From Bacteroidota bacterium (GTDB lineage: Bacteria > Bacteroidota > Ignavibacteria > Kapaibacteriales > UBA2268), in the NCBI GenBank assembly GCA_021824625.1, contig JAKAKE010000068.1:1-38990 (forward strand): a stretch of 38,990 nt of DNA, written 5' to 3'. How positions within the stretch are numbered: position 1 is the first letter of the stretch; each line of letters opens with the position of its first letter. The notes under the pieces are model-generated. The model was not told the DNA's origin. It ran no database searches and saw only the letters and a program-made list of their open reading frames with translations. Positions 4,229-34,427 of the stretch are shown piece after piece. The translations under genes were made by a program, and so were the position numbers.

Positions 4229-4715
4229 AGCATCAACGTTTTATGAAAAAAAACTTGAAAAAGTCATGGAGCGTTTTAATATAACAAAAGATGATTATCT
4301 TTATAATTGGGATCGCTTTGGATGCTGGGTGCAGTTCAAATATAAGGGTGAAATGTATCGTTTTGATCATAGTGTCGAGAATGCAAAACAGCATGGCCAT
4401 GAAATCAATTATGGATCTGACTCTTTTGCTCAATTGATTCTTGCCCTTGAGGATCTGGCCCGGATTGCAGAACGCGGAATTTATGATATACAAAAATGGA
4501 TTGTTGGAATGAGATATCTCCCCGCTCCGGATTTACCATCGTTTTTCCGTGCTTTAGGATTTTCTGAAATGCCTACCATTGAAGATGTAAAAAAGAAATA
4601 TAAAATGTTGGCCCGTAAACTTCATCCGGATGCAGGAGGAACATCAGAAGATTTCAACACTTTACAAAATGCTTATGAAAAATGTTTAGGTTATCTAAGT
4701 GAAAAGAATGAATAA
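4212..4715 (+). CDS. J-domain (DnaJ-like) protein
   Basis: 167 residues. An unrecognised N-terminal region (1-105) is followed by a C-terminal J domain (about 108-165) with the essential HPD at 138-140 (KLHPDAGG) and a preceding basic helix KKKYKMLARK. J domains stimulate the ATPase of host DnaK. No Gly/Phe or zinc region is present, so the N-terminus probably supplies the target. Phage J proteins can redirect Hsp70 to replication complexes. It overlaps the transglycosylase gene by 17 bases and has a GGAGGAAAAAC ribosome site. Confidence 0.85.
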   Translation: MSKTYKASTFYEKKLEKVMERFNITKDDYLYNWDRFGCWVQFKYKGEMYRFDHSVENAKQHGHEINYGSDSFAQLILALEDLARIAERGIYDIQKWIVGMRYLPAPDLPSFFRALGFSEMPTIEDVKKKYKMLARKLHPDAGGTSEDFNTLQNAYEKCLGYLSEKNE

Positions 4716-4719
4716 CAAT

Positions 4720-4863
4720 AAATGGAGTAGTGGCAGAATTATAATGCAGGTTTTAATGAGAAGGATCGCAACCTTTGGCTTCCTGGCTTTCATCAGACCT
4801 CGTGATTTTTGCGAGTAAGCCCAGGTGAAAAAGTCTGTTATGGATGATTATCCTACTCCATTT
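4720..4863 (+). ncRNA. Candidate structured RNA with 11-bp closing helix and pseudoknot
   Basis: A 169-base gap between genes is almost filled by a compact structure. A perfect closing helix AAATGGAGTAG (4720-4730) pairs with CTACTCCATTT (4853-4863). Inside, CCTGGCTT (4782-4789) pairs with AAGCCCAGG (4817-4825, one bulged C). CTCG/CGAG (4799-4802/4812-4815) forms a nested hairpin. CAGAC (4794-4798) can pair with GTCTG (4833-4837), which crosses the previous helix and makes a pseudoknot. AGGTT/AACCT (4748-4752/4770-4774) adds a side hairpin. No ORF, no own promoter and no terminator are evident, so it is probably processed from the early transcript or acts in cis upstream of 4885. It matches no RNA family I recognise. 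Confidence 0.55.
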
Positions 4864-4884
4864 ATCTTTATATAGGAGATTACT

Positions 4885-5220
4885 ATGAGAGAAACATGTC
4901 TTTTTTGTGTATCAAAACACATAGCGCAGGCGATAGTTTTAATCGCAGAATCAGCCAAGGGATATCCGTTTCATTTATGGATTGCAGTCGGTCATCTTGC
5001 CGAGGCTGAGGATGAATGTGTTAGTGAATTCCCTGAATTGACTGACAACATTCGAAAAGTCAGATTGTCAATAATGGGACAGGAAGGAACTTTCCTCCAT
5101 ACTGACTTGATGGATCTGCTTATAAAAGTCCGAAGAATCGCAGAACCTTATAATAAAATATCAGAGGAAGAAAGAATCAAACGGATAATAATTAATCAGT
5201 GTATACGAGAAAAGAAATGA
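4885..5220 (+). CDS. Hypothetical phage protein with N-terminal CxxC and AEAEDE motif
   Basis: 111 residues, ribosome site AGGAGAT. Starts with ETCLFCVSKH, a CxxC...H arrangement that could bind a metal, followed by a helical region with HLAEAEDECVSEFPELTDNIR. The rest is predicted helical and basic at the end. Similar small proteins with a helical body occur in phage early regions, but I know no function. It starts 21 bases after the structured RNA candidate, so that RNA could regulate it. Confidence 0.6.
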   Translation: MRETCLFCVSKHIAQAIVLIAESAKGYPFHLWIAVGHLAEAEDECVSEFPELTDNIRKVRLSIMGQEGTFLHTDLMDLLIKVRRIAEPYNKISEEERIKRIIINQCIREKK

Positions 5221-5252
5221 TCGGTATAATTGGTTTTGAAATGGAGGATAAA

Positions 5253-5477
5253 ATGAAAAGATTGCTTAAAAACATCATAGATTATTTATGGAGATGGTCA
5301 AACACTCATTTGTCATTATCAATGCAGTGTACTTTTTGCGGACAATTTGGAATGTGGTTATTAACAATGAGAAATAAAGAAAGATATCATATATGTGATA
5401 AGTGTTATAAAGATTTTAAGTATTTTGAGAGTCGCGGATATAAATCATCATATTGGGGAGGGCTTGGTCATAAATGA
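5253..5477 (+). CDS. Small zinc-finger-like protein
   Basis: 74 residues from the ATG at 5253, chosen because GGAGGATAAA precedes it. Earlier in-frame codons (from 5199) lack a ribosome site and overlap the previous gene. Two CxxC pairs (CTFC and CDKC, about 20 residues apart) suggest a zinc knuckle. The N-terminus is basic and amphipathic (RLLKNIIDYLWRW). Function unknown. Confidence 0.55.
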   Translation: MKRLLKNIIDYLWRWSNTHLSLSMQCTFCGQFGMWLLTMRNKERYHICDKCYKDFKYFESRGYKSSYWGGLGHK

Positions 5478-5478
5478 T

Positions 5479-5646
5479 ATGCTGAGCAAGGAAAGAAATG
5501 TGAGAACTAACGAAATATCGGATTTCTGGATAGATCAAGCCTGTAAAATGGTAAAGATATGGAGTGGCGTTTCACAAAAGATTGAACAGCAGAAAGATAT
5601 TAAAGATGGTCGTTATAATTGGTATGGATTTGGAGAGGAGGAATAA
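5479..5646 (+). CDS. Small hypothetical protein
   Basis: About 55 residues from the ATG at 5479. The frame extends upstream, and a TTG nearer to GGGGAGGG cannot be excluded. Charged and probably helical, ending WYGFGEEE. It lies between two small early genes with tight spacing, and its end overlaps the ribosome site of the next gene. No family recognised. Confidence 0.4.
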   Translation: MLSKERNVRTNEISDFWIDQACKMVKIWSGVSQKIEQQKDIKDGRYNWYGFGEEE

Positions 5647-5648
5647 TC

Positions 5649-5834
5649 ATGAAAATAGTACAAGTCGGAAATCGATATATTTTTGAATGTGAATTTGAAG
5701 AAAGGCATTTTCCGAAACAAGCAGGGTTCAAGTGGGATCCTGAAATCAAGAAATGGTGGACGGATGATTATGAAAAATGCAAGAAACTTGATTGTATTGT
5801 AACACTGGCGAAAAATAAAGATATTTTAAATTAA
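5649..5834 (+). CDS. Small protein with DUF5710/HARP-like motif
   Basis: 61 residues, strong GGAGAGGAGGAAT ribosome site. The core F-P-K-QAGFKWDPEIKKWWT matches the motif of small domains (DUF5710, HARP-like) found alone or attached to DNA-metabolism proteins such as primases and helicases. The motif probably binds nucleic acid. This is the last gene before a strong promoter at 5838-5866. Confidence 0.6.
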   Translation: MKIVQVGNRYIFECEFEERHFPKQAGFKWDPEIKKWWTDDYEKCKKLDCIVTLAKNKDILN

Positions 5835-5837
5835 TAT

Positions 5838-5866
5838 TTGACTTTTTCTGGAATGGGCTATATAAT
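5838..5866 (+). promoter_or_regulatory. Strong sigma-70 promoter for the 5873-6068 RNA
   Basis: TTGACT (5838-5843), a 17-base spacer, then a perfect TATAAT (5861-5866). The predicted start is near 5873. It lies immediately after the previous gene's stop. No ORF starts until 6097, so it appears dedicated to the RNA below. Confidence 0.8.
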
Positions 5867-5872
5867 ATTCCT

Positions 5873-6068
5873 TGAGAAACAAAAAAGTTTTGTTTTAACA
5901 GTTAGACCCTGTTAATTCAAAATATACAGATTCGCAAGGAAACAAAAACGGCTTTTATCCGTGTTACGGGTGAAATTCGTACTGAGAAGCCCATGCATGA
6001 GGTGGGATATTCAGGCTTTCCTTGTGAGGTCTGTTTATCCGGTCTACACCTCTTGCATGGGCTTTTTT
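5873..6068 (+). ncRNA. Candidate stand-alone phage small RNA, about 196 nt
   Basis: Bounded by a near-consensus promoter and a terminator. Elements in order: hairpin TTAACAG/CTGTTAA (5895-5901/5909-5915) with loop TTAGACC; unpaired CGCAAGGAAA (5933-5942); hairpin ACGG/CCGT (5948-5962); and a long terminal hairpin with stem 5987-6004/6047-6064 (18 bp, one mismatch). That hairpin is extended by GGATA/TATCC (6005-6009/6036-6040). Its apical region carries TTTCCTTGTG (6017-6026), complementary to 5933-5942 over 10 bp with one G-U. This crosses the terminal stem and would make a long-range pseudoknot. Target and class unknown. Confidence 0.65.
5987..6068 (+). terminator. Terminator forming the 3' end of the small RNA
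   Basis: AAGCCCATGCATGAGGTG (5987-6004) pairs with the segment at 6047-6064 with one mismatch, followed by T-run 6063-6068. The 42-base loop is unusually large and itself structured, so this stem probably both ends transcription and belongs to the RNA fold. Confidence 0.75.
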
Positions 6069-6096
6069 GTTTCCTAATAATTCACAAGGATATTTT

Positions 6097-6291
6097 ATGA
6101 CAAAATTCGATTCCGAATTAAGGTTCATGAACGCCTATTCCCATCTTACAGCAATCGCCGACTTATTAAGACAATGTTTTAAAGCGGAATTTTATGAAGA
6201 TACTTTGCCGGCTTTAAGTTCATTGATCCAATTTCAACTAAAAGAAATCAATGATGCATATTATCAATTATGGAGAGGAGACTTAAAATGA
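6097..6291 (+). CDS. Small hypothetical protein upstream of the antirepressor
   Basis: 64 residues from the ATG at 6097 (AAGGA six bases upstream). A TTG 30 bases earlier lies in the terminator T-run and is unlikely. Predicted helical (MNAYSHLTAIADLLRQCFKAEF). Its TGA overlaps the ATG of the antirepressor (ATGA), so the two are translationally coupled and may work together. Confidence 0.55.
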   Translation: MTKFDSELRFMNAYSHLTAIADLLRQCFKAEFYEDTLPALSSLIQFQLKEINDAYYQLWRGDLK

Positions 6292-7118
6292 AAGAATTAA
6301 CAAAAATTATCGAAGAAAAAGACGGTATCCAGACCGTCAATGCAAGAGAATTACATGAGTTTTTAGAATCAAAACAGGATTTTTCAACATGGATTAAAAA
6401 CCGTATTGAGAAGTATGGCTTTATCGAAAATGAAGATTACACGCTCCATAAATTTGTTGAACGTGGAAATTCGGGAGCCCAAACAAAAATCGATTACCAT
6501 ATTTCCATCGACATGGCAAAAGAGTTGTCAATGGTTGAAAACAACGAAAAAGGAAGACAGGCAAGACGATATTTTATTGAATCGGAAAAAAAACTAAAAA
6601 AAGTTATTGCTATTAAAGATGATGCAAAGATCACAACTGCATATCTTGAAGGACTGCTATATCTTATAAAAGCGCATGACAGAAAACAAAGCGAATTCGA
6701 AATAAGGTTAAGGACTCTTGAAAGGGAAGTCGATAACAAACCATTTAATCCCTTGCCAATTATTAAGAATAAAAGTAATGATTCTTCAATTATTCTTTTC
6801 TGGAAATATTTTCTGAAATGTTATTCTGAGGATTTACTTGAAAACCAGGTTATTCCATACGGCAACGAATTGATTTTAAGTATTCCAAATATTTTGAAGA
6901 TAGTAAAATCTTCCGCTAAGCTCGACGGATATAAAATAAATCTTAATATATCCGATGCCGATGTTCATCTTCGCAGCTGTCATAAAGCCGTGCGTATCAA
7001 TAAATCACTTATAAATGATTTGTTTCATCTCGACATTACTTTTGGAAATGCTTTCTATGTCTATTCAGTCCAGAATGAATACGATGAATTCATCCGAAAA
7101 ATCGAGAAAGATTACTGA
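6288..7118 (+). CDS. AntA/AntB-type antirepressor
   Basis: 276 residues, ribosome site GAGAGGAG. The N-terminal AntA domain (about 1-90) has the hallmarks VNARELHEFLESKQDFSTWIK, YGFIENEDY and IDMAKELSMVEN...GRQARRYFIE. A coiled linker (100-145) leads to an unrecognised C-terminal domain (about 160-276). AntA-type proteins block phage repressors or alter developmental choice. The obvious target here is the CI-like repressor at 33735-34427. Its stop codon lies inside the first integrase arm-type repeat at 7116. Confidence 0.8.
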   Translation: MKELTKIIEEKDGIQTVNARELHEFLESKQDFSTWIKNRIEKYGFIENEDYTLHKFVERGNSGAQTKIDYHISIDMAKELSMVENNEKGRQARRYFIESEKKLKKVIAIKDDAKITTAYLEGLLYLIKAHDRKQSEFEIRLRTLEREVDNKPFNPLPIIKNKSNDSSIILFWKYFLKCYSEDLLENQVIPYGNELILSIPNILKIVKSSAKLDGYKINLNISDADVHLRSCHKAVRINKSLINDLFHLDITFGNAFYVYSVQNEYDEFIRKIEKDY

Positions 7119-7308
7119 CAGTAAAAGTGACAGTAAGCCGCCAAGAAATCAATAAAAAAAGCCTTTAAAACACCGTTATATTGCGTTTTAAAGGCTTATT
7201 TTCAGCCCCTAGGGGGATCGAACGCATTTCATTTTCTGACACAAATCATGTCTATATAACAATTTACAAGATTTTTGAATTTTAAAATGACAGTAAGAAT
7301 GACAGTAG
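7116..7308 (+). other. attP region with paired arm-type repeats and a tRNA-like core
   Basis: Four direct copies of TGACAGTA(A/G) sit in two pairs with 12-base spacing: 7116 and 7128 on one side, 7288 and 7300 on the other. Between them, 7204-7223 reads AGCCCCTAGGGGGATCGAAC. Its complement looks like a tRNA 3' half: T-loop TTCGATC, T-stem CCCC, acceptor end AGGGGCT. This is the layout of a tyrosine-integrase attP (arm sites, core, arm sites) just upstream of the integrase gene. The crossover would rebuild a host tRNA 3' end. Host tRNA identity cannot be read from the core alone. Confidence 0.7.
7159..7197. terminator. Bidirectional terminator between antirepressor and attP core
   Basis: Perfect 13-bp stem AAGCCTTTAAAAC (7159-7171) with GTTTTAAAGGCTT (7185-7197). 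T-rich sequence follows on the plus strand and an A-run lies on the left (T-run on the minus strand). It would isolate the antirepressor operon from integrase and, after integration, from host transcripts. Confidence 0.8.
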
Positions 7309-7312
7309 ACTC

Positions 7313-7341
7313 TTGTATTTTTTAGCAGATTATTCTATAAA
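7313..7341 (+). promoter_or_regulatory. Integrase promoter
   Basis: TTGTAT (7313-7318), 17-base spacer, TATAAA (7336-7341). The predicted start near 7348 is only about three bases before the integrase ATG at 7351. The last arm-type repeat (7300-7308) ends five bases before the -35 box, so integrase could repress its own promoter. Confidence 0.65.
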
Positions 7342-7350
7342 ATTCCATTT

Positions 7351-8409
7351 ATGGAAATACGACTATTGTCGCTTTTTAAGCGGTCTGACAGGAGATACTA
7401 TACTGCGGAATATGAATTAAATCAACAAAAACATTCAGTAAGTCTCAAAACAGACAATGAAAAAGAAGCCTGGGAAAGATGGCATAAGATTGCAAGATTC
7501 TATGATGAAGACAATATCTTAGTTGTAAAAAAAATCAATCTCGATCTTGCATTGAATGAATTTATTTTATCACGTGATAAAACAATTCAGGAAAGTACAA
7601 AGGTCTCAGATAAATATCGAATAAATTTTTTCAGAAATTATTTTAAAAAAAATAATATTATTGACACAAGTCAACTTGATGAATCATTTATAGATAATTT
7701 TTTCTCGAATCTTAACAATAAGGATTTATCCAATAAAACAATAAATAATTATGTAACGGTATTGAATATGTTCTTTAAGTTTTGTGAAGAAAAAAAATAT
7801 ATCCGGATTATATTTAATCTAAAAAAGTTCTGGAAGAAAAGAAAAAAAGAAAAGATAAAAATAATCGATATAAAAGAAGCCCGATTTATTATTGAAAAGA
7901 TAAAAGAAATTCAAAATATAAAAATTAAAACATTTCTACTTTTCCCGTTTTTCACCGGATTACGGCATTCGGAAGTCAGAGGATTGAATCGGAAAAACAT
8001 TGATTTTAAAAATAGAATTATCTCGGTTTGCGAAAAAATGACGGTTGGAAATAAAAAGCCAATATCATTATTGAAGTCAAAAGCAGCGTATCGCAAGGTT
8101 CCTATAATGAAGGAATTCGAAGTGTATCTTAAAGAATACCTGGACTTTAATAAAAACGAATATCCTTTTATCTCAATGTCAAACGATGCTACAATGTGGC
8201 ATATCAGCAAACTGAATAAAGATCATAAAACTGCTTATAACTTTCATCAAGGAAGGCACTTTTTTGCATCGCTTTTAATCGATAATAAATTCAGTATGAA
8301 AGAAATACAAACCATTCTCGGACACGAAAATATTTCAACTACCCTTGATACTTACGGGCATCTTATCCGGGAATGGGATATTAAAAAGTTCGATGATATT
8401 GATTTTTAA
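7351..8409 (+). CDS. int: Tyrosine recombinase integrase
   Basis: 352 residues. An N-terminal arm-binding region (1-60) is followed by a core-binding SAM-like domain (about 65-155) and a catalytic domain (170-345). Catalytic residues visible: R205 (TGLRHSEVRG), H299-R302 (FHQGRHF), H325 (LGHENISTT) and nucleophile Y335 (LDTYGHL). No ribosome site precedes the ATG, and the promoter places transcription start at the codon, so the message is effectively leaderless. It integrates and probably excises the phage at attP 7116-7308. It converges with the tail genes. Confidence 0.93.
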   Translation: MEIRLLSLFKRSDRRYYTAEYELNQQKHSVSLKTDNEKEAWERWHKIARFYDEDNILVVKKINLDLALNEFILSRDKTIQESTKVSDKYRINFFRNYFKKNNIIDTSQLDESFIDNFFSNLNNKDLSNKTINNYVTVLNMFFKFCEEKKYIRIIFNLKKFWKKRKKEKIKIIDIKEARFIIEKIKEIQNIKIKTFLLFPFFTGLRHSEVRGLNRKNIDFKNRIISVCEKMTVGNKKPISLLKSKAAYRKVPIMKEFEVYLKEYLDFNKNEYPFISMSNDATMWHISKLNKDHKTAYNFHQGRHFFASLLIDNKFSMKEIQTILGHENISTTLDTYGHLIREWDIKKFDDIDF

Positions 8410-33734: not shown

Positions 33735-34427
33735 ATGGAATGGAACGATAAAATTGAGACAATAATGCGTGTATGTAAATTAAAACAAAAAGAATTAGCT
33801 GAAATTATCTCCGTTTCACAAGGATATTTAAGCGATATTTTAAATAGCAGATCAAAAAATCCAACTTTTTCTTTTATGTATAATTTAGTTGAAAAATTAA
33901 AAATAAGTCCAGATTGGCTTTTAACCGGCGAGGGATCTATGTTCAAAAATCAGGAAATCTATCTCCAGAAGGATCAGCGCATTATTATTGCTGATACCAA
34001 TATTGAAAGCGATGTTGTTTTGATTTATGGAGGAACTAATAAAGCCTCTGCAGGTACCGGACAGGAATTATTGAATAATTCTTCCGAAAAAGCGATTCCG
34101 ATGCTTGAAAAGTTCATTTTACCGTTTAAAGGGCGGGAAGCCGGCTGGGTGGAAGTAGTCGGGGATTCCATGGTAAATGAAAAGCTGTTTGACGGCGATA
34201 TCGTTATTTATATCAAGGGCCTTATCCGAAATGACGGCATTTATGTCATCCAGTATGCCAATGAAGTTATGGTAAAACGCCTGGAATTCGATCCTATCGA
34301 TAAAAAGATTTATATAAAATCAGCAAATGAAAAGTATGCTTACCGGGATAAAATTGTAAATGCCAATGATGAAAACCTTGTTATTTTGGGAAAAGTCAAA
34401 GCCTGGGCACATCAGCATCCGTATTGA
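33735..34427 (+). CDS. CI/LexA-type phage repressor
   Basis: 230 residues, AGGA seven bases before the ATG. N-terminal helix-turn-helix (about 14-60: LKQKELAEIISVSQGYLSDILN). Linker 70-135 includes SAGTG with the probable Ala106-Gly107 cleavage bond. C-terminal S24 peptidase: nucleophile S145 (VVGDSMVNEKLFDGDIV) and general base K181 (EVMVKRL). It should bind operators at PL and PR, hold the prophage silent, and self-cleave in the host SOS response. AntA (6288-7118) is a likely antagonist. It converges on the small gene at 34433 with only five bases between. Confidence 0.9.
   Translation: MEWNDKIETIMRVCKLKQKELAEIISVSQGYLSDILNSRSKNPTFSFMYNLVEKLKISPDWLLTGEGSMFKNQEIYLQKDQRIIIADTNIESDVVLIYGGTNKASAGTGQELLNNSSEKAIPMLEKFILPFKGREAGWVEVVGDSMVNEKLFDGDIVIYIKGLIRNDGIYVIQYANEVMVKRLEFDPIDKKIYIKSANEKYAYRDKIVNANDENLVILGKVKAWAHQHPY

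Follow-up and report, generated by a model that had tools for sequence, protein, structure and literature searches.

A candidate small RNA upstream of a prophage antirepressor operon with a C4-like arrangement of mimic, antisense and target elements

Among the closest described counterparts of the locus presented here is C4 of phages P1/P7, which was catalogued from Proteobacteria and their phages; its upstream a1b1 copies are the motif 'c4-a1b1' of Weinberg et al. 2010 (PMC2864571). C4 carries two loops, a′ and b′, of which b′ covers the ribosome-binding site and a′ provides specificity, and its precursor is cut by RNase P (PMC5320573). The gene order in phage P1 is c4–icd–ant1 (PMC10695390). 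The sar RNA of phage P22 is a small antisense RNA that represses translation of the antirepressor (PMC12197685), and IsrK of the Salmonella prophage Gifsy-1 is tied to the antirepressor-like gene antQ (PMC12197685, PMC4825925). Searches of the open-access literature found no report of such an RNA outside the Proteobacteria. We consider it likely that the segment 5838–6069 described below is a phage small-RNA gene that represses an antirepressor operon by antisense pairing, in a manner resembling that of C4.

Prophage setting and anatomy of the predicted RNA

The window, by which we mean the whole stretch of DNA analysed, is one entire contig of 38,990 bases. It carries genes of a temperate phage, including an integrase, Mu-like head and portal proteins, a terminase, an S24/CI-type repressor and an AntA antirepressor. 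One tandem repeat, of the GATTCGGCAAAAGTAGACTACATCGGC type, makes up both ends of the contig (positions 1–80 and 38911–38990), which was therefore probably broken at the repeat. Misbinning of the contig was considered because Shine–Dalgarno use is lower on host stretches than in the window (26% versus 53%), with similar GC content. The features of the locus and the repressor gene are as follows.

5838..5866, + strand: promoter TTGACT-17-TATAAT, predicted from sequence, with 11/12 sigma-70-type matches
5873..6069, + strand: small RNA, predicted transcript of about 197 nt; fold z of −7.1; no ORF of at least 60 aa
5887..5923, + strand: 5′ hairpin with the a1-like loop TTAGACC (5902–5908), complementary over 6 nt to the junction 6041–6046
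5931..5942, + strand: b1-like 5′ mimic of the target, pairing with the apical loop 6017–6028
5948..5980, + strand: middle hairpin, from the predicted fold
5984..6069, + strand: terminator hairpin with a 14+6 bp outer stem and a T tract; −48.4 kcal/mol
6017..6028, + strand: b′-like antisense loop of 12 nt on a 5-bp stem, a geometry shared with C4 hairpin 2
6041..6046, + strand: a′-like junction GGTCTA, complementary to the loop 5902–5908; second target not found
6082..6090, + strand: b2 target in the Shine–Dalgarno region of ORF64, a perfect 9-nt complement of 6019–6027
6097..6291, + strand: ORF64, 64 codons, directly upstream of antA; no known family, relatives not found
6288..7118, + strand: AntA antirepressor gene; PF08346 at 97.6 bits, PHROG anti-repressor
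33735..34427, + strand: S24/CI-type repressor; PF00717 plus HTH

The predicted promoter consists of TTGACT (5838–5843) and TATAAT (5861–5866) separated by a 17 nt spacer. It ranks first among the 11 promoter-like sites in 4700–7400, a total to be read beside the 11.8 sites that shuffles yield at the looser 9/12 threshold. No ORF of at least 60 aa lies inside 5873–6066. The predicted fold of 5873–6069 has an energy of −74.1 kcal/mol, compared with −44.2 kcal/mol for dinucleotide shuffles, none of which is as good (0/200). An earlier note on this DNA had claimed this promoter and about 196 nt free of ORFs, and both claims are borne out. It had also pointed to a recurrence of TTCCTTG at 5868–5874; the repeat is real, but the site lies at or before the expected transcription start, and most of it is therefore probably outside the RNA. 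The repeat spells the same letters as the antisense loop.

In the predicted terminator, 5984–6004 pairs with 6047–6067 to give a 20-bp stem (14+6 bp, close to the 18 bp claimed earlier), which is followed by a TTTTTTG tail. A simple terminator scan missed this hairpin because its loop is too long for the scan. The apical loop also pairs with an upstream segment across the intervening structure: 5933–5942 (CGCAAGGAAA) and 6017–6026 (TTTCCTTGTG) form 10 bp with one G·U, as had been proposed, and the crossing helix extends to 12 bp with a second G·U (5931–5942 with 6017–6028). Its pairing score is equalled by 7/1353 other phage windows of equal length and its duplex energy by 5/2000 shuffles, which upholds the proposal. 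A second crossing pair, absent from the earlier note, connects the loop 5902–5908 with the junction 6041–6046, where all 6 nt are complementary; the chance of such a pair is ∼5.5e-4 for loops of equal size and composition. Holding the apical loop open carries a cost of 4.3 kcal/mol and does not alter the terminator stem, so that the crossing helix and the terminator can coexist. This favours the earlier view that the element is not a simple attenuator. The same geometry speaks against the crossing helix acting as an antiterminator, a role that was considered and rejected. The anatomy of a small RNA that stands alone, with a promoter and a terminator of its own and a long-range crossing helix, is well supported, and to this extent the earlier description of a stand-alone regulatory RNA holds; what it overlooked is the most informative feature, the complementarity of this loop to the ribosome-binding site of the next gene, in an antirepressor operon.

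The antisense loop and the antirepressor operon

The tip of the terminator hairpin (6019–6027) is perfectly complementary over 9 nt to 6082–6090, in the Shine–Dalgarno region of ORF64. The ATG of antA overlaps the ORF64 stop codon as ATGA, an arrangement typical of translationally coupled genes, and the AntA product passes the Pfam domain test with 97.6 bits against a cut-off of 27. The elements follow one another in the order a1–b1–b′–a′–b2. Nine contiguous Watson–Crick matches to the hairpin tip occur in 1/83 other phage start regions, 0/129 start regions on host contigs, 0/69 starts in kin genomes and 5/2049 starts from other loci. The computed energies are −14.2 kcal/mol for loop:target and −15.3 kcal/mol for loop:mimic, against the 4.3 kcal/mol cost of opening. 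With AAGGA held fixed, shuffled flanks match the target duplex energy in 239/2000 trials; the 9-nt match is partly an anti-Shine–Dalgarno effect and is modest once the Shine–Dalgarno core is discounted. In exact letters the mimic/antisense/target triple of the window comprises 6 nt only (CAAGGA) and is unremarkable in the exact-word triple test, and with G·U allowed it scores 47.5, in the top 0.4–0.8% of mismatched controls.

Given the complementarity between the terminator loop and the start site of the antirepressor operon, there is a good probability, on this analysis, that the RNA works like C4. We infer transcription of the RNA in the lysogen, with a start near 5873 and termination at the T tract 6063–6068. 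The b′ loop (6017–6028) would then pair with the Shine–Dalgarno region 6082–6090 and block translation of ORF64, which through the coupling at the overlapping start codon would turn off AntA as well. With AntA absent, the S24/CI-type repressor, the presumed object of AntA, would not be disabled, and lysogeny and immunity to kin would be kept. The mimics b1 (5931–5942) and a1 (loop 5902–5908) would occupy the antisense elements and release them on processing of the RNA or in competition with the target. In the case of C4 it is processing that takes off the leader. The two modelled duplexes, loop:mimic and loop:target, differ little in energy, and the mimic therefore probably serves to gate or delay the antisense.

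The same elements could also be read as a cis-acting leader, in which the RNA is the 5′ end of the ORF64–antA mRNA, antirepressor output is set by read-through of the terminator or by the loop binding the Shine–Dalgarno region in cis, and mimic and target compete for one loop as a switch rather than belonging to a separate RNA. This reading draws on the collinearity of promoter, RNA and operon, on the promoter being the single promoter-like site of such strength and on the close energies at which mimic and target bind the same loop; Citron and Schuster are said to have described in 1990 a P1 antisense RNA and ant mRNA that arise from one transcript, which also counts in its favour. We nevertheless regard it as unlikely, as the loop helix spares the 20-bp terminator stem and no antitermination follows. 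A cis-acting leader is, moreover, compatible with action in trans, and both may act.

We give little credence to the proposal that the hairpin is a plain terminator of the upstream early operon, with a separate promoter for antA and coincidental loop complementarities. The upstream genes on the + strand do run into the site, relatives of the RNA were not found and the target match is not rare with the Shine–Dalgarno core fixed, as the shuffled flanks indicate; but the RNA has its own promoter 5′ of the terminator and a fold z of −7.1, the two crossing pairs are independent of each other, and the same layout is found at other antirepressor loci (see below). The host-factor decoy suggested by the earlier note, or an RNA acting in trans on host mRNAs, is very improbable: a stably folded RNA whose loop is rich in pyrimidines could have other binding partners, but no support for a decoy was found, the longest match among the tested phage and host starts is that of the adjacent gene (equalled by one other phage start), and the place before antA offers a simple target.

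Antirepressor loci with a word in triplicate

An Rfam scan of the window gave a tRNA as the sole match, with no family, C4 included, assigned to the RNA region at the gathering threshold; at E ≤ 10 the window yielded only mir-1991, Spd-sr07, Dianthovirus UTR and MIR4245, far below threshold. The RNA is thus new in sequence, as the earlier note had claimed, whereas its working principle is probably the C4-like one and not new. DNA relatives of 5838–6100 were not found in 100 related genomes, where the nine short matches outside its own genome are attributable to chance, and searches of plasmids and phages for relatives of the RNA returned nothing, or matches at E ∼0.8. Relatives of ORF64 were likewise not found in the collections searched. 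Because neither the RNA nor ORF64 has relatives in these searches, the pairings of the window itself come without direct covariation.

The comparison was made at the level of the antirepressor gene. AntA relatives were taken from viral contigs and named genomes and their upstream regions were examined; a PF08346 search of phylum, class and order samples contributed one useful extra locus (L093) and one uninformative locus (L292). Rfam C4 (RF01695) is found upstream of AntA relatives in L012, L014, L029, L051 and L236. At C4 loci short words occur in triplicate: one copy lies upstream of C4, its complement is inside C4, and a further copy stands between C4 and the gene that follows (TTAGCAG and TCAGAGG in L012; TTAGAAAG and CGTAAGG in L236). 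The order in L012, L029 and L236, with a1–b1 upstream, b′–a′ inside C4 and then the target, is the same as in the window, and in C4 hairpin 2 a 12-nt loop sits on a stem of 5 bp, a geometry also seen in the window.

The three-part plan of a 5′ mimic, an antisense element and the start site of a small ORF or of antA is present with unrelated words at further loci, where the antisense is directed at the start codon region, either of the small ORF before antA or of antA. The words, which were picked by this same criterion and then reported, are TGTTAAACCATC in the Riemerella phage RAP44, TGTTAATCCAAG in CRP6 and PJA1, TGTTCAAACAAGA in CRP34 and CRP19, and TGTTCAAATACC and TGTTGAAATCAGA in the two tandem units of Riemerella columbina. 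In L093, which belongs to the phylum of the window, the word TGCCAAACAACA has 16 nt and its target is the antA start itself. Among six alleles the word varies at 9/12 positions, with both pairings preserved in every variant, which is descriptive and not an independent test since the alleles were chosen for having the triple. Across 970 start sites at 177 non-redundant loci, exact start-site-anchored triples of at least 9 nt number 10 (one of them an sRNA-Xcc1 locus), compared with an expectation of 0.5 from controls in which loci exchange their start sites. Among the Riemerella loci the Rfam scan covered CRP6, PT33 (whose sequence equals that of RAP44 at this place) and R. columbina, and gave no match at the RNA. 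A pattern for the Riemerella-type RNA, searched in viral contigs, recovered the known locus and one match judged to be chance.

Several further observations were made at these loci. In R. columbina (L018) the two tandem units, each of RNA and small ORF, lie at 1231–1326 and 1572–1669 before one antA, and the first ORF encodes 36 aa. In the Riemerella phages, including RAP44 (L287), blastn reports a second stretch with similarity to the RNA region in most genomes, and a DinD-type gene is located upstream of the antA unit in RAP44 and other members. sRNA-Xcc1 (RF02221), which has been discussed as a possible virulence RNA (PMC12189769), lies directly upstream of AntA genes at L239 (2312–2400) and L255 (2317–2403); it carries the triple of mimic, antisense and target there too (CTTACAAG; GCAAAAAGA), placed at the ribosome-binding site, and sRNA-Xcc1 may be an antirepressor-controlling RNA like C4. 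Triples are also present at L105, L113, L126, L159, L167, L225 and L240, mostly AntA loci of Bartonella or viral contigs, with M at ∼−233, A at ∼−66 and T at ∼−30 from antA and with the differing words TAGAAAAC, TGAAAAACA, TAACAAACA and TAAGAAAC; Rfam was unmatched upstream of antA in L105, L113, L159 and L225. Terminator hairpins abut antA in L013 (1888–1981), L023 (1915–1997) and L053 (1902–1977), where the loops pair with an upstream element and, in L023, the Shine–Dalgarno sequence lies inside the terminator stem; these are possibly cis-acting antA leaders.

The evidence is about evenly balanced for the broader proposal that many unrelated small RNAs with one common plan guard the antirepressor genes of several bacterial groups; in this plan a short word present in triplicate would be changed in all places together and serve as an exchangeable tag of immunity specificity. 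C4 and sRNA-Xcc1 would be two known cases, and the RNAs of the window and of the Riemerella phages new ones, either independently evolved or very diverged. The window and the Riemerella-phage loci suggest that mimic/antisense/target control of antirepressors is far wider than the catalogued C4, and that it has escaped notice because sequences vary between phages. The concerted change of the word at its three sites is evolutionary evidence both that the antisense pairs with its target and that the mimic pairs within the molecule, and it offers a simple means of finding such RNAs. If the proposal is true, phages whose words differ should fail to cross-repress at the antirepressor step, and swapping the word at all three sites should shift the specificity.

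Comparison with described systems

The prophage RNA IsrK resembles the window RNA in being a small RNA linked to an antirepressor-like gene. It differs in being described as both an sRNA and an mRNA, and antQ is described as acting on transcription termination, unlike a simple blocker of an AntA gene. The likeness to sar of P22 lies in a small antisense RNA directed against antirepressor translation, as proposed for the window RNA; sar is reportedly transcribed opposite to the ant transcript, whereas the window RNA and its target are arranged in tandem on the same strand.

The RNAs of RAP44, CRP6, CRP34, PJA1 and R. columbina have in common with the window a promoter, a 5′ mimic, an antisense element in the terminator hairpin and a small ORF before antA. 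They have another sequence and fold, their mimic is near the presumed 5′ end, and their target is the start codon region, that of the window being the Shine–Dalgarno sequence. A covariance model of the Riemerella type (R1), run with filters off, gives the window 9.0 bits on the + strand and 10.9 bits on the − strand, compared with 79–108 bits for its training members.

With respect to C4, the window RNA matches RF01695 neither at the gathering threshold nor at E ≤ 10. Of the three-stem fold, the outer stem, the b′-like loop and the junction are present but hairpin 1 (with its tetraloop) is absent; an extra inner helix is present and the long stem doubles as the terminator. The stem base, GAGAAGCC, is without GGW, whereas the RNase P cut of C4 lies at GG(W) there (PMC5320573). 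On reading the sequence between 6069 and 6097, no complement of GGUCUA that would serve as a second target (a2) for a′ was found. The window RNA is therefore not a demonstrated member of RF01695, since the model gives no match, hairpin 1 is missing and no second target of a′ was found. The likeness to C4 lies in the arrangement: the window RNA, too, lies ahead of a small ORF and an antirepressor gene that share its strand, in the layout of P1/P7 c4–icd–ant; its b′ element complements the ribosome-binding site of the ORF that follows, perfectly over 9 nt and in part as an anti-Shine–Dalgarno sequence; the upstream copies a1 and b1 are complementary to a′ and b′; and a′ occupies the junction just 5′ of the 3′ arm of the outer stem. 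The window RNA thus probably represents a sequence family that is not yet catalogued and that operates on a known working principle.
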